From Arctopsyche grandis (taxonomy: Eukaryota > Arthropoda > Insecta > Trichoptera > Hydropsychidae), in contig NC_135362.1 of NCBI RefSeq assembly GCF_051622035.1, positions 9,613,501 to 9,677,500 on the forward strand: 64,000 nt of DNA, given 5' to 3'. Under the pieces are notes generated by a model. The model did no database searches. It worked only from the letters and a program-made list of their open reading frames with translations, and was not told the origin of the DNA. Positions within the stretch are counted from its first letter, which is position 1, and each line of letters starts with the position of its first letter. Positions 7,371 to 63,865 of this stretch are shown piece by piece. Position numbers and translations under genes: made by a program.

Positions 7371-7710
7371 GTACATTGTATTTACGGCAATGAAGGTAGT
7401 TGCTCGACTTCGGAGGAATGGGCTGACTGAACTCCAAAGGCTCACTAGCGTCTGGGGCTGGTGCGCTGGTGTGACGAGATCATGCTTTCGGAGATTCCTG
7501 TGGGCTCGCGATCGTTCTTATTGAGCGGATCGAATAATGTCTTTGCTCTCGATGAGCGAAGATATTTCAAGCGAGGATGTTGAACGCGATGATGCAATCG
7601 TGCGACTCGTGTTTTATGTGGAAGTTGATGAGATCATCGATGTCGATTCAGGATCGACATCGATCCTGGATTCACTTTACGCGTTTAGAAAACTTGTATC
7701 CCTATGATTT
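7371..7710 (-). mobile_element. LTR-like fragment, reverse orientation
   Basis: The reverse complement of about 7405-7470 contains CCAGACGCTAG, then a GGAGTTCAG block. It resembles the segment at 8415-8470 and the one at 40820-40860 (TCTAGAGTTCAA). These look like the transcription-start region of one LTR family. This copy lies head to head with the plus-strand copy at 8040-8495. No coding domain is visible, and both boundaries are uncertain. Confidence 0.4.
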
Positions 7711-7872
7711 TGTGGCGGCTCGCTTATACGACATGGTCGAGTTTGGTTGCCTTCCTGCGAGTGGGGACCAACCCGGCTGGGTTCGGAGAGCCACTACTCA
7801 CTCTGTCTTCAGCTGTCATATAATAAACACGTGCATTAACATGCCAGTCGTCTCATTCGTTCATCCTCCATA
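7711..7872 (+). mobile_element. Solo 162-bp LTR of the TRIM family
   Basis: Starts TGTGGCGGCTCGC and ends CATCCTCCATA, the same 162-bp unit as the two LTRs of the element at 32403-33472 and the solo copy at 33532-33693. A 4-bp target duplication ATTT flanks it (7707-7710 and 7873-7876). An AATAAA-type signal lies inside. A solo LTR with a duplication is expected from recombination between the two LTRs of a full element. Confidence 0.9.
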
Positions 7873-10337: not shown

Positions 10338-13300
10338 ATGTCCCGCTCGCGACTGTGCGTGCCGGCCGAGCTGCGGGAGCTGCTGCTGGAGTTCACGGTG
10401 TCGTGTCTGCTGGAGCAGCCGGCCGACGTGACGGCTTACGCGGCCGACTTCTTCTGCCGCCTCCGCGACGCCCGCCGCGCGCCCCCCGCCCCCGCCCCCG
10501 CCGCCTCCCGCGTCGCCCACACCCCCGACGACTCCATCATCTCGGACGAAGACGGTCAGTCGCCACACACATCCACTTACATGCATGCTCTGCGCTCTGC
10601 GCTCTGCGCTCTGTCCGATGACAGCTGGTGTGACCGATAATGGCCATGACCGCTTTTGCTCTTTTCACTCGCATTCGTACTCGGTGCGAATCGAATTCGC
10701 AAAGTCCTATGGTTCACAATGTGATAGTTCGTCGATTGCACATTGTGAAATTGGTCCGAGTCGCGTGCGCAACTTTTCATCCCCGTCCGTCGAGTGACAG
10801 TTGGGAGGGTCGTAACGTGACCGATAACTACCATGATCTTGTTTTTTTTTATTGTTATTTTCGTCCCCCTTTCTTCGATCGATAATTCGCATTTTAAAAG
10901 TACGCGATTTTGGATAATCGATATTTTGCGCAATATGTATAGAAATAATTGTAGAATAAAATATGTTTACAGTATCTAGAGCAGTGGTTCTTAACCTTTT
11001 TTGGAGGTACTGACCCCCCACCAGTTTCATATGCGCATTCACCGAACCCTTCTTAAGAGGGCTGGACACCGGCGCCTTGTCCATACAAATGTATTAGACT
11101 TCTCCCTTCCTCAATTATGGCACTAGAGAAATTATTTTTTAATATGCTATGGATATCCACCATTGGGTTGCATCTATTGTTTTATTTTTTTTGATTAGTT
11201 ATTTTTTATATGAGCTAGGAGCCGCCAAACATCAATAAAATCGCCTCTTTTTTACACCCACGAAAAGATTCCAGCGTGCCTATTTAACGGTCGATTTAAA
11301 AAAAAATACGCGCATAGTTGCACAGAAAATATCTTTCTCATACCGATGATGAAATTTTTTTAAAAATTGGTCCAGTTTTGGAGGAGAAAATATTAGAATA
11401 CGAAACCTCGATTTTGTCAATTTAAAATACGTTTTATCTGGTCGAAGCGCAACTGTCGCATTCACTCAATATATATATATATATTGATATATATTGTCGC
11501 ATTCACCCAATATATATATTGAAGAAAGGAACGGCAACAAAATTAAGGTTTCGGGTGTACAGCCCTCTTAATTGGAAAAATAAAATATGATTTTTTCAAA
11601 TTCAAAACAGGTATATATTTTACTGGTGCACAAAATGAACCGTGCATCAACATCACTGTGTTCAAAGAACAAAACCATTAAAACGTGATTTTCACACAAA
11701 CACATAATAATGAATATTTACTGCAAATCAGTGTGGCTTCTGCTGTTGCCTTTCAGAGACCAGTTCAGAAATGCGTGGCTTCACCTTGGCAAGTGCTACT
11801 CTCATGTTATTTTCGCAACAAAGTCTGTTCCTTTTCTTCGTTTTTATGTCCAGCATCCTCGAAAAGGATTGCTCGCAAAGATATGTTGTAACAAACGGTA
11901 TGAAAATCTTCAGAGCTTTCTTAACAATAACAGGGTACTTTACCATTTGTTGACACCAAAACGTTGAGAGCGTTGTTGTTCTGAAGAGTTGTTGTTGAAC
12001 CTGGCTCTGCTGAATTTCCGCCGAACCCCTGGGATTCAATCAAACCCAGGTTAAGAACCACTGATCTAGAGTAATGCGAATGTTTTTCAAATTTAAAACC
12101 AGGACATTTTTTTTCAATAACATATTTGATTAACCCTTTGAATGCTGATCAACGTCTATTGGCGTTTTGGTAACAAGGCCATGAGCCTGAAATACGCCGA
12201 TAGGCGTTGTTTTTTGAGTATGTAAAAAATAATCAAGAATACTACCCCGCTAAGCCTTTCCAGGTAGCATTGAAAAAAAATGCATTGAACATGGATCGTG
12301 TAATCCGTGTCAATGTTTATGAAGACTGGTTTACAACGGAATTTCTGAATTTATAACCATAGCAGAATTTCCCAATGGAAATCTCTAACTGCCGAGTATT
12401 TTAGTTTGTGGCTTGGCATTTAGATTGTGAGCATTTTAGGAAAAATGCATTCATTTATAGACTTTTTTTGTTTGTTTTATATTGTTCCAATATATATTAG
12501 AGAGTCTAAACACACTTTTACAAAACTCGAAATCCTCGGCAATAGTAGTAGATTTCAGTGCGATAATATAAAGGTTTCAGTGCGATAATATTGACGGTGT
12601 CTGAATCATTTTTAAAATACACAAACACATTTTTTAATAAAAACCATGGAAACTAGTCAGTGATCGATTCTGAGCTAAAAAATCAGTTGAAATTTCGATG
12701 TCGAATTTTCTCATATTCACAAAACTTCAAACATATTGATACTACATATATACATAAATAGAGAAAAAAAATCATTCATTTATTAGTATATTTAGAGATA
12801 AAATATTAATTATTAATCTTATAAGCGCGACGACTATCCAAGTAAATTATAGAGGCTATTTAGATACTCTTCAAAATCTGCGTCCACTTTGACCAAAAAA
12901 CACTATCAATTCTAGACGTAGTTCTCAGTGTGATCAATCATCGCTACAATTTCATTGATACACACACTACTGTCCATTCCCGATCACTTGAGGATCAGCT
13001 AAATGTGGTAATAAACGACACCGAGGAAGTCATCCACAGCAGAGTTCATTCGAAGATAACACATCAGAATATATTTGATATAAACGACGGATTCAAATAA
13101 TATATGTTAAGCTTTGTGAATCTTTTTGTACAATATAAAAACAAAATAAAAAAAAATTGATATAAGTAATTATAAATATTTCGTAGTACATTATTATGAT
13201 GATAATGAAAATGTGAAGTATTCAAATAATAATAAAAAAAATACAAAATCAGTTTCTGCTACTTGAAATCAGGTGTTAAATCGATTGGAGCTTATCAACT

Positions 13301-16300
13301 TGTCTATTTTTATCTAACGTATAAATCTTTAAGTGTGTGTGTTTTTTTTAACCTATTATCGGTATTGGTATTAAAATGATTCATATAAATAACAGTTGAT
13401 TATCGCAATAATCATGATCCGCAAGATTAACTCATTTGTGTGATGTTGGTTACTTTTTTTTTTTGCATAATCCATCAAATAATGGACAACAATGGACATT
13501 CAACTAATTGGGGCTAAACGTTTTAACGCTTCTCTCTTTGTATCGTAAAATATAATTTCGCAACCAAAAGCCATTTCTAAATAGGAATGTTTATTAAAAA
13601 TTGTTTAAAAGTCATTCGGAATCAATGTAGACATGTTTTTTGTAAGATTATGAGCGATTTACTTCCAGCAGTCTCACTTGTTATAGATTCTTGAAGATAA
13701 CATATAAAAAAAAAATCATAATATTTTATCATAAACAGCCGACTATTTATAGCCCTTTGCTTATATTAGCGCCGTAAATAGTTTTTCGCGCTATTCAACG
13801 CCGTTTCTTCTTCATAGTCGGTTATGAAAGAAACTACATACAAAAATAATCATTTCAGTTGAATCAATCGGACTTACCGAATGCAAAACAGAACGTGCCG
13901 TGGGTGTGTGTGTGAAAAACTGTTTCACTCTAAATTAAGTATCAAGTAGCTTGAAATACGATTCGACACATGCATATGAACCGTAAATTTGTGAAGATTG
14001 CCTCGTTACAACTTACATTTCCCGTTAAATTGCGCAATGCGAGTACAAATTGCGTGTGTGGGTATCTCGGACATAGCGAACGCACAGCCGTATATTGTGG
14101 ACATGAATGGACTCATTAAGTACGCCAACAAAGGGATAAGACCGGTCAATATGTCGGCTGAAATATAAATAACAGTTTTGGCGTTTGCTTTGACTCGCCT
14201 CGGATTGTTTGACTATTCCGGCACAAGTTATCCTTCGCCGGGTAGACTCGTTTGGGAAAATTTTTCAAAACTCGTGTGTGTGGGTACGTTCAAAAGCACG
14301 TGACACACATGTAGAGGTAAAATTATGTATGAATAGGTAAAATTTTCAAAACTGGTTCTTTCGTCGAATTAAAAACACTACGATTAACATTCAAAATAAC
14401 CAGTTTCCTGTATATTACATATGTACGCTTTACTGGAGACTATCGAACGTCGGGCTAACACGTTGTGAAATTGCATAATGTGTACTTTCAATTGAATGTA
14501 TCACCGTGTGTGTGTGTGTGTGTGTGTGTTCTTATGCTAATGATCGAAATTAGCACACTTTTAAATGCACATATTACACGTGTCCCATGTTCGGAATGCT
14601 TAATTCGAAGAATTTGTTATGTTTCTTCTTTCTTTTGTTGGGTTTTTATTTTGATCTTTTAGTGCGTCGTTACATATCTTTGAAATGTGTCTCGTGTGAT
14701 AATGTTTTGAAATTAGTATGTATTTTGTTAACAATTTGCCAAGGTTTTGTATTTTTTTAATTTTATTTTTTGACTTGTCAACTTTTAAGTTATGTGCGAC
14801 AAATGCTGAATGTAATCGTCTAAATATACACCTCAATTCAAACACACTGTAAAGATCTTATCGTCTATTTATTTTTTGATGAAATTTAGTGTTTTTTTTT
14901 TCAATTTAGTACTACTATTTCAAAGCGTGACAAAACTATTGTTGAAATTTATTATGTTGTTTTGTTTTTGAAATAATACTTAAAATATATTAAAGTTGGT
15001 TGGGATTATCTTTCAATTTAGCAAGTGGTTATGTGGCAACCTTTTTTTTATTTTTTTTTTGCAACCTAGCCAGAAAACTGCACTCAATCACTATGATCTG
15101 GCATTTTCATATATGTAGTATTAAAATGCAATTTGATGTGTTTCTACTGGGTTTATTTCATTGTTACGACTATAAAAAGTAATAGCTTTCGTATCAAAAG
15201 CAAAACGATTAAACAGTAAATTGGTTTTTAACTTTATTAGCTGTATATTATAAAAAAATCAGTATGTTTATATGATTACATATTTACAATAAGCTATTTA
15301 TGTATATATATTGTTGCGTAGGGGTGGGTGGAGGATCCAAATGAAAGGCCAAAGTCGCTTCACAGCATTTATTGATTGATTCAGGAGGTCCATGCGCAGC
15401 CAGCGCTCGTTCCAGAATGGTCTGATTTGGCCTAAGTACCTCTTTAACTAGTAAAAAGGGAAGGTCGCTCACTACAGCTTCCTCGATCCGTTTGTTTCTT
15501 CGTTTAGGCATGTACAGTTTTAAGTGAGTCTCGCGCTTTCGCGGTCCCACACTCTCAGGGTTCTAGGAATTCTACCGACCACTTTGGGTCCCGCTAGGCC
15601 AATTCGGGGGTCTCCATTGTTAGGCCCCGAATGCACTTTAGGCGGCTGATAATCCCCACGTTACAATATATATGTATATAGCTATTAGGATTTTTTCGAC
15701 TACCGGTACACCGGTATTTACCGGTAAATGAAAAAAGTTTTTTTTGTGTATTAGATAACCGTACGTGGTGACTTTCACTAAAAACGTTAACCTAGATTGA
15801 ATCATAAATGATTAAAAATAAAACTCTGGTGAATAATGTCGTATAAATGCATTAAATTTAATTTGTTATTTGAAAGTTTCGATCATTGAAACAACCGTCT
15901 GATCACATTTATTACGATTTGGTTGGATTATGTATGTAGCTAGTGAATTTATCGATTCGAAATAGCTGCATTTAATACTCAAAATTAACAAATTCCAGAC
16001 AATATAATCTACAATATGCCATTTGCATCGATTTTTATTGTAATATTATGCAAGTATATATGCCTTGTATATGTACTTAATTCGCCATAAAATTTTGACT
16101 GGTAAACCGGTATACCGGTTCCCTAATTGCTATACTGCAGCCAAGCTGTATAGAATGCTGGTTGCGTTAATTCTAACCACAGAGAGACTACTGGGTTCAA
16201 GCCCTGGTTTGACTTCGATTAAAGATAATGTATTCGGAGTATTTCTGCAGTGCTGCCGGTCAGACTTGGATAGTTGAGACATCAATTCGATCATTTCTTA

Positions 16301-20173: not shown

Positions 20174-23040
20174 AGTGTTTCACTTTTATGTCAGCATACA
20201 TCTCTAACCCTCCCAGCCCCGCCGACAATATTTATTATTTTCACGTCTTATGCTTTCGCCATGACCCATCATCGTCCGCATGTGTATGGAGTTTCAAATT
20301 TGCGCGCGACGTTATCTCCCGCTTGTGTTCTGGTAACCTGAAGATTACCCGGAATCGCTTATTCTGGATGAATTAGGAATATCAAGTTGCTCTTGAAAAT
20401 TTTAATTGGCTCTTGTATAGGATTCCTTCTTTTTTGTGAATTTAGAAATTGAAAGTGTATTTTTATGATGTTAATAAAAAAATAATTTCATACTTTTCCA
20501 TTCATTCACGTTCACTGATACTTCTTTTTATTATTATTATTTATTTATTGGTTCATCTAGTTAGTGGGTGTATTGTTTTTTTTTTTCCATATTCATCTTT
20601 TTTTATTATTTGTTTGATTATAAATATTTTAAATTTTATCATGTGAACAAGCGATTTGTTTATTAAAACGTGTTACATTATTATTTTTCAAGTTAATGTT
20701 TTATTATTATTCTATTTTAATGTTATGTTTATGATTGTATATGCAGATAATTTCATTGAACGACTTATAAAATTTGCAATTTTACATATCAAATGGTTTA
20801 ATACATAAGGGGGCGTATATTGCACTTTGGGGACTATATTTTTGTAGAATGTCTGCTGGTGAATTATAATGCTTAACCCTCCAAGTGCGCTAGGTGGATT
20901 TACGATGTTATACTGATATAGGTTTTTGGCATGATCAAATTTAATTAAAATAATAATATAATTAAAAAATAAGGTTTATAAAAAAAAGCTCACTGGATAT
21001 CTTGCGAATCACGACTAGAGCTGTTCAGTGAAATCATTAACAGATATTAAATTAAGATTCGTTTAAGTTTTGGAGACTAAATTTCTCAAATGCATTTTTT
21101 ATATCATAGTTTATACTGTTATAGCTGGAATAACTGATAATCAGTAAAACTGAAATAAATGATACAGAGATGATTGACCATACATTTTGCACTTTATTAT
21201 AAAAAAAATATAGGTAATACATAATGGAAAAATTTAAAAGTCGTCTACATTTATATCATTTTAATAACACTATAATAATTTCGGGTAGTCTTGGAAAAAT
21301 CTTAATTTGCAGTGGATATAATAGTCTTTATCATTCGGCTTAGTACTTACATTGCAAAGAAAAAAAAACATAATATTTGTATACTAGTACACAGGTAAAT
21401 ATGTGTCTTAAATCAAATAACTTAAGAAATTTAACATTGTATTTTTGCTTTCTTTTGTTTTGCTTTTATTTTATTATTTAAATTTTACTAGGCTTTCGAT
21501 TCACATGTTTTTCTTACTTGATTTGAAGCTAAGAATTGTTTTTGAAAAAATGCTAAATCGAATATATGGCTTTCTTATCACACAATTTGATATTGGTTAT
21601 GGATATTAATAATTTAATTTTAAATGCAATAATCTAAATAAATAATTTTAAATGCATCTATGCACAAATGTTGGTTAATTTATTTTGCACAATTGTTTTG
21701 TTTGTTTTTAATCAAAGAGGGCATTTAATTTTTCTATTACAGAATTATCAAAATGAATTATTATAAATGTGTCTACTTTATGACTGACAAAAAAAATGTA
21801 TGTCTTATGACCAATTTTCCGCTATCTTGTGATAAAACAATCTATTTTATAATAATCTATGATCTTCTTGGAAGAAACTAAATCAAATTTTTGTTTTTTC
21901 GTTTTATCTTATTCTTAATCGACGTGTTAAATGTAAATACTTTTAGTTTTATCGAATATTTTGTGCCATTTCTGCACGTCAACGTCGTGAATGAGGTTGT
22001 TGTGTGTGTCAACTTTACATATTGATTATGATTCTCGACATTTTTTATTTATCAATTCGCCCATAGTGAATTAGGTAGTGAAATTTTTATGCACTTTTTA
22101 CACAGGTTTTATCTTTGTTGTTGTTGTTTTGTTTTATAATGGACCGTTGTTTTATTTGATTGAATATGAGAAAATTTTCAAGGTTTCGTTTAGTGCGTAC
22201 TGTGACCAAATAATTGTGTTCAAGCATACTTTAGGATTTTATTCATTATTGTTCAGTTTATAGCGCTGTTGAATCTCAAAGTCTAGTCGTTCGTATTCAT
22301 TTGATAATTTCTGTATTAGTACAATTAAATATATATGTACCGTTTCTAAGGTATATATGTATATTTATTACTTTGTTTCTGTTGGTTTCAGTGAAAAGTA
22401 ATCTGTTAATAAATCGACGTTATGTATGTTTTTTTTTTTTTTAAATTCATTTTCTTCTAACGTATCCTAACGTTTTAGGTGGGGCTTTATTCGTTTATTT
22501 AATTTCGACGGCTTCCATTTTAATGAATTGATGTTTCACCTATTTATAACATTTAAAAATTGCGAGCAATTTAGTACAAAATCATCATTGTAAATGTTGA
22601 TTTTTTATTTTTAATAATTTTTAACATTAATTTCTCGGTGCAATAAAGTATCTATAAATTAATTTTAAATCTGAATTAATGGATGTATTTCGTTAGCAAA
22701 TAATTATTTAATCTTATGTAGAAGAGATTTGTTGTCCTCGCGTGTGGACTAAGCAACTTGTAATTTCAGTAGATTTGCTCTTGTCGAGTCCGGTTAACAA
22801 TTTTATGTAGTTAATGTGTCCCCCATACTCCCTCGTTTATGATTGTATCAATGTATTTAAAAGGTTGATTATTAAGGATGTCCAAAAGTCTGTCGTTTGT
22901 TTGAAAGGAGTCTGATCTATGTTATAATCATTAATATATGTGTCTCCTATTTAATCTCTGTTGTACATGTTGTCTGTGTAATTTTTTCAGATGGCCCTAA
23001 TTTCAGTTCTAACATTTTATCTAATCTTTTTTTTATTTAC
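20174..23040 (+). other. Probable 3'UTR of Pka-R2 and following AT-rich DNA
   Basis: No coding frame is supported. AATAAA-type signals occur, for example near 20470 and 22641, and either could end the transcript. RNA data would decide. The stretch is strongly T-rich on the plus strand. Confidence 0.4.
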
Positions 23041-23235
23041 TTATATCCCAGTGGTTAGAGTTGTGTCTTTCGGTAGCAGACGTTGCCGGATCTAATGCCA
23101 CTGGCACCAAATCAATCCGTCATAATTGAAACTTATTTTTAAGGCTTGTTTTTGGATCCTAAATTATCAGTTTACTATTGATTAAATTGGCCAATTACTT
23201 TAATTAATTGTTGACAATTTATTAGAGCAGTGTAT
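23041..23235 (+). mobile_element. Possible tRNA-derived SINE
   Basis: An A-box-like AGTGGTTAGAGTTG at 23051 is followed about 40 bases later by a weak B-box-like GCCGGATCTAATGCC. The body includes TTGGCCAATTA and ends in AT-rich DNA. It resembles the tail of the SINEs at 16130 and 60295 only weakly. Confidence 0.45.
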
Positions 23236-26065
23236 TTTATTTTAATTTAAAGTCAAACAGTATTTACATAATTTAGTATATTCGTTTGCCATTTATTTAT
23301 TTGTGTAAAATATTAATATACTAAATCCAGTGCTGGCACTGGTTTATTTTAAAGTTCTATCAATCAGTTTTTTTTTTTGTTATCTACATATGTATGTGTG
23401 TATATGTTGACATTATGTTTATGATTTTTTTTTCCTTTTTTTCTATGTATGACAAAATCAATTATAAAATTGTATGACTGTTTCTCCCTTTGTGATGTTT
23501 AATTATTCCTTTTGGATATAGTTTTGATGTAAAATGTCTTATAATGATGTTTAATCGGTGTGTAATATACATTCCTTCTTTTCTATGATGTATTCTCCAA
23601 TCAATGATCTAAGATTGATGTCATGTAATAATAGTAATGAATTAATGTAACTCATTTAGGCTACATTTACATATATTGAAAATGGATTATAAACAAATAT
23701 GTTTTTGTTTTTTTTTTCTTCTCACAATTGAATTGATTTTTGTAATGAAAAAAATATATGTTAATAAACATAAAATGAAAATTGTCTATTAAAATGTCTG
23801 TGAATTTTTAAATTATGAAAATGAACTATTGCCCATATACATATACTATAATATATAAAGAGTTTTATATACCAATGTTTCCATGTGCCTTCCTATTTCT
23901 CGTATTCAATACGATTCGCTCATTTTTCCCCTCCGATAACCTGAAGCTGATTGCGAAAATATTCTTATAATGTAGGAATGTGGTTGTGATGATGTTAATC
24001 TTGAAACATATGATAGATAATGCGATATACCTGTGTTTGGTATTTTAGGTAGATCTATTAATATCAAGGTGAGCTTGGTTTTGGATTCCATTACATCCGC
24101 TTGATTATTTGTTGCATAAAAACACGGTTTTTTTTTTTTATAGTTCATAAAATCATAAAAACATTATAAAATTACATGCTGATTTTTTAAAATTCAAGTA
24201 TGGGCAATAGGACATCTTCGAATTGTTTATTTATCTAGATAATTTATAGTACAATTGCATGAGACAATGTGATGTGGGAACGTTTGAGTGACTTTGATGT
24301 TTTCATCGCAAGCCGAGTGTCGATAAATCCTATCTGGTTATGAGATCTAATTGATGTGTTGTATTATAATTCCAGTGCCATAAACCTGTGATTGATGGCT
24401 TTCGTGTTTATTGTAGTTTTAAACTTGTTGCACACTCGGTGTACCGTTTGATCTATCGAGTCACTTTGGTGTCCCTGCGATTCGGGATGTGATATGCGCG
24501 GACTATCGCGGTGTGTCACTCAATGCAATGCCATTTTCGTCGGACTGTAAGGGTCGTATCGTCGGGTCGAAGGTTGCTATCGGGTATTTTTGCTCGTTTG
24601 GTATTGTCGGCTTACGATACGCTCCCGTGGCAGGGTCGACGATCTGTCCAGTGTTAACGTTCATGATATATATATGTATATTTGTTCATTGACGATGTGA
24701 ACTCAATTGACGATCGTTTCCTTCTTAATTGTATTCGTGTTAGGCAAATTTCATTCCTCGACAACACCGTTAAATGTGATACTATATTATAGTGAATAAT
24801 ATTGTAACAAGAATACTCGTCCTGTGTGCGACAGTTTTTTACCTCGGCCATTTTGTCCTAACGCATAGCACATTTTTTGAAATCTTTTTATATAAACACG
24901 TTTCAAAAAAATGTTTTTTTACTAATGCCTTACGGTGAGATGATGCCACTTTTTGGGACAAATCATTTTCCTTCGTTAGAAATATCTATATCAAAAAAAA
25001 AAAATGGTATTTTTTTTAACCTATTGAATTGTATGTATATAAATTTATATATAATTACGGTGACTCCTTCCTGTCGTTTTCTGTCATTACATAAATGTAT
25101 TTGTTACCTTTATAACTTAGTTGGGCCATCTCTTTTGTGTACTCATGTATAAAATCTCTTGAAGAAACTCGTTAAAAAAAATCTATATATATATATATGA
25201 CTATTTTTTTGTAAATGTGTGTGTGTGTGTGTGTGTGTTGACCTGTGAAGCTTGTCAAGCGATGAATATATCAGGTTATTTGTAAAGTAATAATCATCAT
25301 CTGAGCGATGTTTAAATATTGTGGACAATAAGCGAGCATCAGTATCGAATCTTAGGATCACAGTTGAAATGAAGCAATTTTATGTTAATAAAAGAAAGAT
25401 ATACATATGTAGGGCAACGTCACTCAGTTTGAGCAATGTGCGTGTAGATGAGCGTCGATTCTGAGAGAGAAATGTTACATTATTCAATGTTGTGTTTACC
25501 AATGTTATGTATGTATGTATATGCCTAATAATGTTTGCATTTAAATTGATATATGAATATAATATAAAAATTAACATCCATTCGTGGGCTATTGTACGTC
25601 TTCAATATTTGTTGCCATATCAGAGTAAATAATAAATATGTAAAAAAAAAAAAATCATAAATGTGATAGCTTTTAAGGTTTATTAAATATTAGTTCGTTG
25701 TGTATGTATTTATTTCGATGTAACCAGAGAAGATGTCGTGTTTGTGTGTCACGTTAGTGTGCGGTCTCGTCTCGTAGTCGATCAGTCTACCGTTGAGTTT
25801 GGGCAGTGGCGCGCCACAAAATAGTATCCATATTTAATTAAATGAAGAAAGTCAACATTGTAACCGAGTGTTTTTTACGACGCACGTACTGTTTTTGAAC
25901 TTTTCGTTTTTGATACACCAGATATGGTCCATTGATGCTGCTTCCCCACGTAATGAGCTTACACATCCAAAGTATTTATTATGTATTGTGAAATTATAAA
26001 TATAATTATATTGTTTGTTTGTAGATTTAATACAGTTCTTTCATTTTTCACCCTGTCCGAATTGC
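23236..26065. other. Intergenic AT-rich DNA
   Basis: No gene is supported. A more balanced-GC stretch at about 24420-24660 (CpG-containing) and another at 25730-25830 stand out from the AT-rich surroundings but show no open family frame. A (GT)n tract lies at 25216-25239. Confidence 0.35.
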
Positions 26066-27180
26066 TCACGATTGTCTTCCCGATTTGTCTAATAATTCCT
26101 TTTAGATTTATACTGTAACGTGGGAACACGAGTATCCACTGTCTAAGTGCATTCATGGGTGAACAATAGCGACCCCGGATTTGGCTAATGGGACTCAGTA
26201 AGTGCCCGAACAAAGGATACGCTGGAGTTCTCACAGACCTGTTCATAAACGGTAGAATCGCCAGGTTACACATTTAAGTGCCTAGACAATAGACACATTA
26301 ATGCTCATGATTGTCATACTGATTTGTCTAATAATTACTTTTAGATTTATACTGTAACGTGGGAACATGAGAGAGAATATCCACTGTCTAAGTGCATTCG
26401 TGGGTGAACAATAGCGACCCCGGATTTGGCTAATGGGACTCAGTAAGTGCCCGAACAAAGGATACGCTGGAGTTCTCACTGACCTGTTCGTAAACGGTAG
26501 AATCGCCAGGTTACACCTTTAAGTGCCTAGACAATAGACACATTAATGCTCATGGTTGTCATACTGATTTGTCTAATAATTACTTTTAGATTTATACTGT
26601 AACGTGGGAACATGAGAGAGAATATCCACTGTCTAAGTGCATTCGTGGGTGAACAATAGCGACCCCGGATTTGGCTAATGGGACTCAGTAAGTGCCCGAA
26701 CAAAGGATACGCTGGAGTTCTCACAGACCTGTTCGTAAACGGTAGAATCGCCAGGTTACACCTTTAAGTGCCTAGACAATAGACACATTAATGCTCATGG
26801 TTGTCATACTGATTTGTCTAATAATTACTTTTAGATTTATACTGTAACGTGGGAACATGAGAGAGAATATCCACTGTCCAAGTGCATTCGTGGGTGAACA
26901 ATAGCGACCCCGGATTTGGCTAATGGGACTCAGTAAATGCCTGAACAAAGGATACGCTGGAGTTCTCACAGACCTGTGCGTAAACAGTAGAATCGCCAGG
27001 TTACATCATTAATTGCCTAGACGATAGACACATTAATGCTCCCGATTGTCATCCTGATTTGTCTTAATTATTCCTTTTAGATTTATACTGTAACGTGGGA
27101 ACATTAGAGAGAGAGTATCCACTGTCTAAGTGGATTCGTGGGTGAACAATAGACCCCGGATTTGGTTAGTGGGACTCGGT
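26066..27180. repeat. 245-bp tandem satellite derived from an LTR 5' junction
   Basis: TGTAACGTGGGAAC recurs at 26114, 26353, 26598, 26843 and 27089, with spacings of 239, 245, 245 and 246 bp. Each unit has an LTR-like part (TAAGTGCATTCG, GACCCCGGATTTGGC, GGGACTCAGTAAGTGCC) that resembles the solo LTR at 15312-15665. A shorter non-LTR part (GTCTAATAATTACTTTTAGA and TTTATAC) follows. Units 2-4 are almost identical, which suggests recent amplification or homogenization. The 65-codon open frames in each unit are by-products. Confidence 0.93.
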
Positions 27181-28170
27181 TAACCCTTTGAGTGCTGACG
27201 TCTTATGTGTTGAAAGTCCGCCATGCTGAAAATTTCGCCAACATTTCCAACTAGAATTATTTAGACATCCAATAGAAAGCAAGTATAAAAATTGTAGCCA
27301 ATCCAAACAAACCCTAGATAACTACAACCGAGGATTTCGAATTTTGTAAAGGTGTTTTTAGACTCTCTAATATATAAACAAAAGACGTCTATTAAAGAAT
27401 GTATTTTGCCAAAACTAGTTCCATCTTCTTCATTGTTGTAAAAATGTAATGCTTACAATCTAAATGCCAAGCCACAGTCTAAAATACTCAGCAGTTAGAG
27501 ATTTCCATAGGGAAATTCTGCTGTTTATAAATTCAGATTTTCCGGTGTAAACCAGTCTTTATAAACGTTGATAAATGAATTGACACGGATTTCACGACCC
27601 ATGTTCAATGCATTTTTATTTTATTATAATAGTACCTGGAAAGGCTAAGCGGGTAGTATTCTTGTTTACTTTGTAAATGCTCAAAATATAAACGCCTAGG
27701 ATGCGGTGTCGGTGTAAAATCGCCAGACAAATTGAACGACAGATTAACGGACGGCTGCTTTAAATGCAATTCTCATCTTCTCGAATGATAGATTACACAT
27801 CAGATGACGGGTAACCTTTCGATGTGCACAGATGCAATTATTAAATGGTAATTATTAAAATTGAGTTGGATCTTTCAGGCGAGTTTAATAAGGCAAGATT
27901 CGATAATTTCCGAATCTTGCCTTATTAAACTCGCCAGAAAGATCCAACTCAATTTTAATAATTGCATCTGTGCACATCGAAAGGTTACTCTTCATCTGAT
28001 ATGCAATCTATCATTCGAGAAAACGAGAATTACGTTTAAAGCTGCCGTTCTGTCAATCTGGCGATTTTAGAGCGGATGGACCAAACCCAAACGCCTATTG
28101 GCGTTTTTCAGGCCAATGGACTTGTTGGCAGAACGTCGATCGGCGTTGTTCAGCATTCAAAGGGCTAATG
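27180..28170 (-). mobile_element. piggyBac-like MITE inserted in the satellite
   Basis: Ends are TTAACCCTTTGAGTGCTGAC (left) and TTCAGCATTCAAAGGGCTAA (right). They are inverted and bounded by TTAA or a near-TTAA. The satellite text GGACTCAGTAAGTGCCCG is split exactly here. 27231-27680 matches 12131-12560 in reverse. A later palindrome (27725-28065) lies within it. Confidence 0.8.
27725..28065. repeat. Long hairpin (about 165-bp arms)
   Basis: GAGTTTAATAAGGCAAGATT at 27881 is followed almost at once by its inverse AATCTTGCCTTATTAAACTC. The pairing continues outward through ATCTTTC, AATTGAGTTGGATC, GATGCAATTATT and TTTCGATGTGCACAG to about 27735 and 28060. The loop is about 10 bp. One arm is also present at 9060-9225. 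Confidence 0.9.
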
Positions 28171-28310
28171 CCCGAACAAAGGATACGCTGGAGTTCTCAT
28201 AGACCTGGGCGAGTGCGTGCGTTAACAGTAGACTCGCCAGGGTAGATCTTTAAGTGCCTAGAAAATAGACACATTAATGGAACGGGGAAGCTGTGCTGTG
28301 CAACTTGTCC

Positions 28311-28556
28311 TTAAGGGCGAAAACACACAGCAAGGAACGTGGCACATGGTTTTGTTTAAATTCTTTTAAAAATGCGAAAAAAATGTGGCACTGTCCCAAA
28401 ATCATCCCCTGGAGTGTTTTCGGTAAAATTGTATCCTTGCTCGACAGTGATCGATAATGGTGTATCTCATATTTAAAGAAATGTAGGAGAACCCCCACAG
28501 CGGGGAGCCAAGCACCAACGTGCTGTTCTTCCGTGTGATTTCGCCCTTATAAAGAG
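28311..28556. mobile_element. MITE with AAGGGCGAAA termini
   Basis: TTAAGGGCGAAAACACAC at about 28310 is inverted at GTGTGATTTCGCCCTTATAA near 28537. The body (AGTGTTTTCGGTAAAATTGT and CACAGCGGGGAGCCAAGCAC) matches 52715-52825 inside the hAT MITE at 52489. A TA-type duplication is likely. Confidence 0.6.
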
Positions 28557-28689
28557 GTGCACTGTAGATCAGATTATTCTGGAGTGAGCGGTGGTTCCGT
28601 GTGGACCTCTGGGATCGTTGAATAAATGCTGTGAAGCGACTTCGGCTTTTCATTTGGATCCTGAATCCACCCCTACGCAACAATACTAT

Positions 28690-32402: not shown

Positions 32403-33472
32403 TATAGAGGATGAACGAATGAGACGACTGGCATGTTAATGCACGTGTTTATTATATGACAGCTGAAGACAGAGTGAGTAGTAGCTCTCCGAACCCAGCC
32501 GAGTTGGTTCCCACTCGCAGGAAGGCAACCAAACTCGACCATGTCGTATAAGCGAGCCGCCACATCACTCCCCCCCCAGCATCAGCGATACCAAAATTAC
32601 AAAGAAACAAATTTTACCAAAAGAAAAAAATTATTGTTACACAAAGAGAAAAAATTATTACGTGGGGAGAAAAAAATTGTTGACGTGGGTCATCCGCTGT
32701 GTACATAGGTGTACCGCCCTGAATGGTCGGTAGATTCGAGGGCGGTGACGTCGCGAGCAGGACGGTGGCTGGTCCGATGGTCGCGCGATGCGATGCTGCG
32801 GCGGCGCCGCTCTTCCGAGGCTGATGTCGGTTGGTGGGGCGGCGGGGGCGGCAGGGGCATCGATGTGGTTGATGATACTCCGAGCTGGACTGTGAGTCGT
32901 TGTGGCTCGTGGAGGTGTTGTAGCGCTACCGCCCGTCTCGGCGTGACGACGCTCGTGGGGACGGACGGGGCCTTGATGATGATGATGATGATGGTGCTGA
33001 GGTGGTGTATGTCTTGTGGTGCTGGATGACCGTTCTATGTGTAGTGGATCGCGCATGACTCCACATCCAGCTGTCAAGATCGTCGTCTCATTCGCTCCCC
33101 CATTATTGTAAGCACCTGTCATCGACGTTGTGGCTGGACGTCGGTAGGTAGGTAGCCGTGTCTGCTCGTTTATTGTCACCCGCGGGCCGCGACGCGTGTT
33201 GATGGCGATGGGGGCGCGGCGGGTAGCTTCCTGCCTGGCTCGGCGAGGCAGGGATGAGCGGCATGTTGAAATTGATCGAGGCTGCGTGGCTCGATGTCGG
33301 GGGTCACCAGTATGGAGGATGAACGAATGAGACGACTGGCATGTTAATGCACGTGTTTATTATATGACAGCTGAAGACAGAGTGAGTAGTAGCTCTCCGA
33401 ACCCAGCCGAGTTGGTTCCCACTCGCAGGAAGGCAACCAAACTCGACCATGTCGTATAAGCGAGCCGCCACA
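32403..33472 (-). mobile_element. Complete non-autonomous LTR retrotransposon (TRIM-like), 1070 bp
   Basis: Two direct 162-bp LTRs (33311-33472 and 32403-32564, both minus) enclose 746 bp. Outer flanks are ACGT on both sides (32399-32402 and 33473-33476), a perfect 4-bp duplication. Immediately inside the 5' LTR the minus strand reads C then TGGTGACCCCCGACATCGAG, a primer-binding-site-type TGG. Just before the 3' LTR is the purine tract GGGGGGGGAGTGA. The internal part is GC-rich and has no gag or pol. An open frame of 173 codons (33179-32658) is rich in His, Pro and Thr and resembles no known domain. Mobilization would need enzymes from another element. Confidence 0.93.
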
Positions 33473-33531
33473 ACGTATTACAGGCCACTAGTATTTATAA
33501 ATATCGTTAAACGCAAAACATTATATGTAAT

Positions 33532-33693
33532 TGTGGCGGCTCGCTTATACGACATGGTCGAGTTTGGTTGCCTTCCTGCGAGTGGGAACCAACTCGGCTG
33601 GGTTCGGAGAGCTACTACTCACTCTGTCTTCAGCTGTCATATAATAAACACGTGCATTAACATGCCAGTCGTCTCATTCGTTCATCCTCCATA
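33532..33693 (+). mobile_element. Solo 162-bp LTR of the TRIM family
   Basis: Same unit as the LTRs of 32403-33472, opposite strand, 59 bp away. A perfect 4-bp duplication TAAT flanks it (33528-33531 and 33694-33697). Confidence 0.92.
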
Positions 33694-34155: not shown

Positions 34156-34264
34156 ATTATAACGGCTCATATGTGTAACGTGGGAATATTTTAAACGAAG
34201 TCCGTAATCATTCGTTTAATTACAAATAATATTATGAATCTTTTTCATTCAGTTATTTTAGACA

Positions 34265-52379: not shown

Positions 52380-53015
52380 TACCTACGTATGTAGATGGTA
52401 AGGTTTTGTCTCAAAAAACGTACTCTTACCGCCCCACATGTCTTTTGCAACTTAAGCTAAAAACACATTAAATAAATATATGTACACACAGTGGCGTGCG
52501 GTGAAAGTTTTCCTGTTTTTGTTGCACAGTCTTATTTACGCGAGCGCGAACAAGATACAAAGGGACTAGGTGACGACATATCGAGTCTTCTTGTATCCTA
52601 CTAACGTAAGAGGACGAAATCACACAGGAAGGAACGCGGCATGTGGTTCTTTTTAGATACTTTTAGCACATATTCAAGGCACGCCCAGCACAAACCGTCC
52701 CAAAACCACCCCTATAGTGTTTTCGGTAAAATTGTATCCTTTTATTTATCCTTGTTTTGACAGTGTATCCCATATTTGAAGAAATGTAGGCGAACCGCCA
52801 CAGCGCGGAGCCAAGCACACGACGTTCCGTTCTTCCCTGTATGATACGCTCTAAAGCTGTGCGACGAAAGCATGAAGAATTTCACCGCACGCCACTGATA
52901 CGTACAAGTATTTATTTAATGTGTTTTTAATTTAAGTTCCAAAAAACATGTGGGTCGGTAAAAGTACTTTTTTTGAGACAAAACCTTACCATCTACATAC
53001 GTACTGGTAGGTATA
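52380..53015. mobile_element. Foldback element with hAT MITE in its loop
   Basis: ACGTATGTAGATGGTAAGGT then TTTGTCTCAAAAA and CTCTTACCG (52386-52430) are inverted at 52962-53005. The arms continue to TTAAATAAATATATGTAC next to the hAT MITE. Arms of about 100 bp, with the MITE as the loop. Confidence 0.8.
52489..52897. mobile_element. hAT MITE (CAGTGGC family), 409 bp
   Basis: Ends CAGTGGCGTGCGGTGAAAGT and inverse TTTCACCGCACGCCACTG. The 8-bp flanks are not identical. The middle shares AGTGTTTTCGGTAAAATTGT and GGAGCCAAGCAC with 28311-28556. Confidence 0.75.
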
Positions 53016-63167: not shown

Positions 63168-63560
63168 GAACAAAAATTTTTTTTTTTCATTTTTTTCATA
63201 TTTTTCATATTTTTCATATTTTTCAGTTTTTTCATATTTTTCAGTTTTTTTCAGGTTTTTTCAGTTTTTTTAATTTTTTTCATAAATTTCATTTTTTTCA
63301 TAATTTTCATTTTTTCAGTTTTTTAATTTTTTTAATTTATCAGTTTTTTCATTTTTTTCATTTTTTCAGTTTTTTCATTTTTTTCATTTTTTCAGTTTTT
63401 TCATTTTTTTAATTTTTTTCATTTTTTCAGTTTTTTAATTTTTTTCATTTTTTCAGTTTTTTAATTTTTTTCATTTTTTCAGTTTTTTAATTTTTTTCAT
63501 TTTTTCAGTTTTTTCATTTTTTCAGTTTTTTCATTTTTTCAGTTTTTTCATTTTTTTCAT
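63168..63560. repeat. T-rich array of TTTTTTCA/TTTTTTCAG words
   Basis: About 390 bp almost entirely of T-runs of 5-7 broken by CA, CAG or AA. Each TTTTTTCAG looks like a 3' splice acceptor on the plus strand. No gene is implied. Confidence 0.92.
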
Positions 63561-63865
63561 TGCCGGGGGCGCTGGCGGCGCCGAAGGCGTCAGCGGCGCT
63601 GGGGGCGAAGCCCCCGGGGTGCCGAAGGCATCGGGGCGCTGGGGGCGCTGGAGGCGTCGGCGGCGCTGGGGGCGAAGCCCCCGGGATGCCAAAGGCATCG
63701 GGGACGCTGGGGGCGAAGCCCCCGGGGTGCCGAAGGCATCGGGGGGGCTGGGGGCGAAGCCCCCGGGGTGCCGAAGGCATCGGGGGTGCTGGGGGCGCCG
63801 GAGGCGTCGGCGGCAGGGGCCCCGGAGCGACGGAGGCATCGGGGGCAAAGGCGGCAGGAGGTCGG
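63561..63865. repeat. GC-rich array of mini-hairpins
   Basis: A unit of about 37 bp contains GGGGGCGAAGCCCCC then TGCCGAAGGCATC. It occurs at least four times (about 63600, 63664, 63709, 63746), with degenerate copies on either side. Each arm pair closes on a GAA triloop. Extremely GC-rich in an AT-rich region. The Ala/Pro/Gly-rich open frames on both strands follow from the repeat and are not called as genes. Confidence 0.9.

Follow-up and report, generated by a model that had tools for sequence, protein, structure and literature searches.

A tandem array across the junction of a solo LTR and its flanking DNA in Arctopsyche grandis

Introduction

Most inferences about how tandem repeats originate come from large, homogenised arrays that no longer preserve the first step. 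Kelly reportedly described, in 1994, mouse minisatellites that by the title of the paper lie within a long terminal repeat (LTR), and Armour et al. are said to have associated human minisatellites with LTRs in 1989. Both cases resemble the locus described here as short tandem arrays seeded in or by a transposable element; however, Kelly's mouse arrays, by title, lie within the LTR, whereas the unit described here straddles the LTR and the DNA that flanks it.

Tandem repeats derived from transposable elements, including those derived from LTRs, are well known, as the available parts of several papers document (PMC9659126, PMC6947457, PMC12628747, PMC3648361, PMC7004042). In the model of Haber and Louis for minisatellite birth, as the available part of the source presents it, short flanking repeats undergo slippage or unequal exchange and the product then expands (PMC6947457). 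That scheme shares with the history proposed below a course in two steps, founding over short homology and then exchange over longer homology, but as given there it uses repeats of 5-10 bp, compared with 2 bp at the founding joint here. The maize repeats CRM1TR and CRM4TR likewise derive from a retrotransposon LTR, and their authors propose, in the available text, illegitimate recombination followed by amplification (PMC3648361). As described there, these repeats are entirely element-derived (LTR and UTR) and form many monomers, in contrast to the LTR-plus-flank unit found here in five copies at one locus. Finally, the model of McGurk and Barbash, in the portion of the source available, also concerns arrays seeded by transposable elements and derives them from double insertion or LTR-LTR recombination (PMC12628747); it needs repeated insertion or LTR recombination, whereas flanking DNA is present in every unit here. 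We found no published tandem array that spans an LTR/host junction, which is weak evidence of absence, as most subscription-journal papers lay outside the search.

Here we analyse such an array in a 64,000-nucleotide stretch of the Arctopsyche grandis genome (C8:9613501-9677500, hereafter the window; assembly of 475,669,232 bp in 189 contigs).

Results

Extent and make-up of the array

The window contains a tandem array that starts at 26063 and whose last unit continues into an LTR ending at 28682, as a sequence-only reading of the same DNA had noted, with corrections given below. TRF reports a repeat at 26063-27177 with a period of 245, 4.6 copies, 94% matches and a score of 1928. The array has five units with a period of 245 bp, which occupy 26063-27179 and resume at 28165-28279. 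Its features, in window coordinates, are as follows:

26063..26113, plus strand: J1, the original left flank, 51 bp with the ATAC target site at its right end; founding left copy (J1-J5 alignment)
26114..26301, plus strand: unit 1, LTR 5' part
26302..26546, plus strand: unit 2, flank copy J2 and LTR 5' part
26547..26791, plus strand: unit 3, flank copy J3 and LTR 5' part
26792..27036, plus strand: unit 4, flank copy J4 and LTR 5' part, with a 3' half that differs in type from units 1-3
26200..26931, plus strand: block that was probably multiplied recently, in three 242-bp copies (26200-26441, 26445-26686, 26690-26931) with pairwise differences of 4, 4 and 2
27037..27179, plus strand: unit 5, flank copy J5 and first part of the original LTR
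27180..28168, plus strand: MITE-like element in unit 5, 989 bp including its target copies TTAA/CTAA (piggyBac-like), with ends CCCTTTGA..TCAAAGGG placed by end alignment
27697..28091, plus strand: inverted-repeat (foldback) element located inside the TTAA-site MITE
28165..28279, plus strand: remainder of unit 5, the LTR 5' part as far as ATTAATG, where the duplication ends, keeping a 10-bp stretch that is absent in units 1-4
28280..28682, plus strand: the following part of the LTR, as far as CAACA at its 3' end, broken by the second MITE-like element
about 28312..28549, plus strand: second MITE-like element, ends AGGGCGAAA..TTTCGCCCT, TA on both sides, with a relative at 52611-52840
28683..28686, plus strand: ATAC, right copy of the 4-bp target duplication

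The LTR start, TGTAACGTGGG, is found in exact letters at 26114, 26353, 26598, 26843 and 27089. All five starts, including that of unit 1, are preceded by a 51-bp stretch, TGCTCA..TTTAGATTTATAC, the first copy of which (26063-26113) has on its left DNA unlike that left of the other copies. The array consequently starts at 26063 and not at 26066, although the start itself had been recognised, and a unit is made of 51 bp of left-flank DNA and 194 bp of LTR 5' sequence, which keeps the earlier division into LTR and non-LTR DNA but replaces its sizes of about 185 and about 60 bp. Unit 1 measures 239 bp because the length of its GA run differs. Unit 5, once past the unit end point ATTAATG (28279), runs on into the LTR 3' end at 28682, as had been seen, although the two MITE-like inserts there had gone unnoticed. 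An extra copy of the 11-letter TGTAACGTGGG at 34174, on the plus strand, has no LTR sequence after it.

The LTR has the ends TGTAACG..GCAACA and is bordered by ATAC directly before 26114 and directly after CAACA (P = 0.006 for a random 4-mer match in the window), as a solo LTR with a target-site duplication would be. ATAC had been proposed as the 4-bp duplication and also borders a close relative nearby, L016. A 4-bp target duplication suggests Ty3/gypsy. The 51 bp before every unit, together with ATAC at both ends, bear out the earlier proposal that flank DNA and the LTR start were duplicated together after insertion at ATAC.

These head-to-tail units homologous to a transposable element place the array among TE-derived minisatellites and tandem repeats. 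"Satellite", the term first applied to it, is apt for a tandem array but generous for five units at one locus: satellite DNA forms long or abundant arrays in the genome, and the full unit was found nowhere else among the 40 candidates scored out of 1799. Most likely the array is neutral, locus-bound and minisatellite-like, with no function indicated.

The units as copies of a single LTR

Mismatches in LTR segments A and B between unit 5 and units 1-4 number 17/184, 15/190, 14/190 and 15/190, respectively, similar to the 16/198 that separate unit 5 from L016 (C8:9563436-9563811), an intact, single-copy solo LTR that belongs to the same subfamily and is bordered by ATAC at either end. Distances of this size would fit a composite of two LTR insertions, formed by double insertion at one target or by gene conversion, in which units 1-4 would stem from one element and unit 5 from another. 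A 10-bp stretch, whole in unit 5 and in 10/12 other LTR copies but absent in units 1-4 and in a related fragment about 120 kb upstream (fragment F), would fit it too; L035 and L042 carry deletions of different extent at this stretch, with all or part of it gone, and its loss is thus recurrent.

However, two substitutions unite the units. T at A81 occurs in all five units and in fragment F but in 0/13 other LTR copies compared over segment A, and G at B65 in all five units and fragment F but in 0/12 compared over segment B; a third state common to the units and F, at A88, is also present in 2/12 others. In a FastTree analysis of A+B the six array copies form one clade (support 0.844) on a short stem, within which fragment F groups with units 1-4 and not with unit 5 (support 0.531) because its B part is of their type. 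The two substitutions, shared by units and F and absent in the other LTRs, argue that the units are local duplicates of one LTR. Moreover, divergence among the flank copies is comparable: J1 and J5 differ at 4/51 positions, J2-J4 differ from J1 at 5-6/51 and from one another at 0-1/51, so that flank-copy and LTR-copy divergence appear to be about as large. Tandems born of double insertion consist of whole elements at one target site with no flank between them, whereas a 51-bp flank is present in every unit here. We consider the two-insertion composite very unlikely, and the duplication of a single LTR with its flank remains our reading.

An old founding duplication and a later re-amplification

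Because units 1-4 are as diverged from unit 5 as separate LTR insertions are from each other, the founding duplication should be old, and the short stem of the array clade suggests that it fell early in the life of this LTR copy. The inner units are much more alike. Units 2 and 3 differ at 1/193 positions of A+B and at 2 of 245 over the whole unit, and the inner 242-bp block shows 2-4 differences per 242 bp, compared with 3.6-12% in outer comparisons, a contrast that was chosen after looking. The same contrast gives a Fisher P = 7e-6 on pooled, non-independent pairs and, in a shuffle of one comparison, was reached in 67/5000. The contrast is clear on the pooled pairs and weaker in the shuffle; it points to a later re-amplification of the 242-bp block to three copies, for which unequal exchange would be the natural mechanism. 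The units are thus unequally related, at odds with the earlier description of a segment duplicated about five times in one step; instead, an old founding duplication would have been followed by re-amplification of an inner block. The suggestion that the array was caught close to its origin holds for place but fails for time, the founding duplication having diverged like separate LTR insertions.

At the founding joint, the left flank reads ..CCGAATTGCTCACG, the LTR ..ACATTAATGGAACGG and the joint itself ..ACATTAATGCTCATG, with 2 bp (TG) in common, no more than chance would often give. Since the homology at the joint is just 2 bp, end joining, slippage or template switching most likely founded the array in preference to homologous exchange; the 2-bp joint fits all three and proves none. 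The short match of GCTCACG and GCTCATG, put forward as a mark of the recombination point, lies inside the 51-bp homology and for that reason cannot serve as the breakpoint; the two strings are simply two copies of the leftmost bases of the duplicated flank.

Nested insertions and an exported fragment

The foldback element within the TTAA-site MITE (27697-28091) is abundant in the genome, its copies making up 37 of the best 40 matches at 94-97% identity. A relative of the TTAA-site MITE lies on the minus strand at 12130-12539, beside an intact TTAA, and its matches skip the nested foldback. The relative of the second MITE-like element (52611-52840) is itself located between the 102-nt inverted arms of another element at 52384-53003.

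Fragment F (C8:9520814-9521407; positions 3815-4408 of L009), on the same strand as the array, matches window 26914-27483 over 594 bp at 89%. Within it, the end of a unit and its joint are followed by the start of the next LTR copy and by 300 bp from the left of the MITE. The F joint is closest to J5 (2/52) and the A part of F to A5 (2/91), from which we infer that the MITE was already in unit 5 when F departed from the array. Relative to the window, the MITE part of F differs at 37/304 positions and its J and A parts at 4/143; this excess divergence of the MITE part is not accounted for by simple copying. TRF found no 245-bp array at F, and the left end of F carries a 13-bp local repeat (TGAATTTGGCTAA).

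An assembler that misjoined repeat copies or inserted extra ones might be suspected where two units, 2 and 3, are just 2 bases apart in 245. However, the units differ in an ordered way, unit 5 holds the MITE, and fragment F keeps a separate copy of the unit joint beside that MITE. An assembly artefact is highly improbable, the number of inner units being given as assembled, and we retain duplication in place.

The LTR family outside the array

We searched the genome with unit 3 (245 bp) as query and scored 40 of 1799 candidates, which yielded 46 rows; because common words are skipped and few candidates scored, diverged arrays could be missed, and fragment F itself is unlisted. Among the candidates scored, the array accounts for 5 of the 46 rows, four covering query 1-245 and one covering 1-143, and the full unit matched at the array only. 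The other 41 rows represent 39 places on contigs C1-C13, so that the LTR part is a dispersed family. Thirty-eight of these places have one match each, starting at query 32-53, and the 39th (C4:30533086-30533897) has three rows, two of which start at query 144 and the third within 32-53. As the LTR starts at query 52 and its ATAC target at 48, these matches are essentially LTR; the one reaching furthest left (C3:32680754) starts at query 32, with 83% identity.

In the surroundings on C8 (25 loci, L009-L033, 246.5 kb from C8:9437001-9613500 and 9677501-9747500), the unit query matched three places: L016; L019, a degenerate single LTR copy; and fragment F in L009. In L016 the remainder of the LTR follows directly on ATTAATG and the 51 bp are missing; likewise, the alignment of the more distant solo LTR at 15312-15665 runs through the unit end uninterrupted by a 51-bp insert. 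Ten further LTR places from the top of the genome search (L035-L044) are all single-copy, and at E <= 1e-3 none of them (0/10) matches J1 or J5, nor does L034, the eleventh place fetched. In 9/10 of these the match to the LTR extends to position 373 of 376 or beyond, with internal gaps and 73% identity in L042; in L036 it stops at 219. Single-copy relatives of the LTR are about 370 bp long. Target duplications occur at L016 (ATAC/ATAC), L038 (GTAC/GTAC) and L041 (ATAT/ATAT), and the flanks of L035 (ATAC/ACAC) are not identical. In the window and the 246.5 kb around it, flank matches at E <= 1e-4 are confined to the array and fragment F; a weak 25-bp match (84%, E = 0.007) lies at 23496-23520.

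Neither observation that would have spoken against duplication at this locus was made: no 245-bp array appeared elsewhere among the 40 of 1799 candidates scored, and no extra flank sequence was seen inside other LTRs (L016, L034-L044).

LTRs can carry internal direct repeats, and every unit contains the LTR start, but that the repeats are internal to the family and arrived with the element is almost inconceivable, given that unit 1 is preceded by 51 bp outside the LTR edge, that these 51 bp are in 0/10 fetched single-copy LTRs and missing from the intact L016, and that the whole unit matched at no other scored place (40 of 1799). An origin of the 51 bp in the 3' end of the element's internal region, which would make the unit internal sequence plus LTR like maize CRM1TR, has the precedent of LTR-plus-UTR units in the available part of one paper (PMC3648361), but we give it next to no credence: the LTR is flanked by ATAC at either end (P = 0.006), no purine tract precedes TGTAAC (the bases there read CCTTTTAGATTTATAC), no upstream match was seen at the other scored LTR places (40 of 1799; 0/10 fetched), and stop-free stretches over 23000-26062 reach 96 codons at most.

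A mirror-image array on C4

A second, independent array of the same LTR family is located at C4:30532909-30533797 (L034 310-1198, minus strand), with a period of 306, 2.9 copies and 92% matches. Its LTR is preceded by ATAT. The unit consists of the LTR 3' part, from near GGGACTC to CAACA, and about 16 bp of right flank (ATATATATGCTTATTT), repeated three times, and the last copy runs into different DNA (TTTTAAGATCGGG). The C4 joint includes TTAGGCTAA, which is also present in nearby LTR sequence. This array is a mirror image of that in the window, at the LTR 3' edge.

Other sequence in the window

Exact patterns had 0 matches in viral contigs and genome contigs, blastn found no match in plasmids or phages, and Rfam gave 0 matches at gathering scores. 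A sequence of about 163 nt occurs in three copies within 1.3 kb at 32403-33693, in both orientations and 99-100% alike, and again at 7703-7872. A dense TTTTTTTCA-type tandem repeat adjoins a GC-rich 41/67-bp repeat with GGGGGCGAAGCCCCC at 63181-63838. Pfam domains were found in 4/8 scanned ORFs (GTF3C1, zuotin/DnaJ, Myb/RAC-head and cyclic-nucleotide-binding) and mark the host as a eukaryote.

Discussion

The sequence-only reading is partly supported, and we are confident of the following history as a whole. An LTR retrotransposon would have inserted at ATAC, leaving what is now a solo LTR with 4-bp target duplications. A segment comprising the 51 bp directly left of the LTR and the first 194 bp of the LTR itself would then have been duplicated head to tail at an early stage. 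The right copy would have stayed as the original LTR start (unit 5) and taken the MITE insert, and the left lineage would have lost 10 bp. Unequal exchange, for which the 245-bp homology offers a substrate, may have added copies derived from the left unit, and later may have multiplied one 242-bp block to three copies. A piece already carrying the MITE would have been copied about 120 kb upstream as fragment F.

The locus is an example of an already known kind of process, and a clean, orderable one. Its contributions are a unit made of both LTR and flank, the survival in situ of the flank that was copied, an ordered history and a second boundary case. Because neither the source flank nor the LTR edge has been lost, and single-copy sister LTRs and an exported fragment are also still present, the founding duplication, the nested insertion and the re-amplification can be put in order.

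The mirror-image case within one LTR family suggests that births of boundary arrays recur and could be counted genome-wide. Four features lie near GATTAGGCTAACGGGACTCAGTAAGTGCCC: the joint of the C4 array, the left end of F, the point at which the MITE entered unit 5 and, approximately, the right-hand edge of the multiplied block. It is conceivable, though we think it improbable, that the LTR family has a breakage-prone segment (around GATTAGGCTAACGGGACTCAGTAAGTGCCC) that repeatedly seeds arrays across the LTR/host boundary. If that were true, this retrotransposon family would be a genome-wide nursery of tandem repeats that capture host flank.
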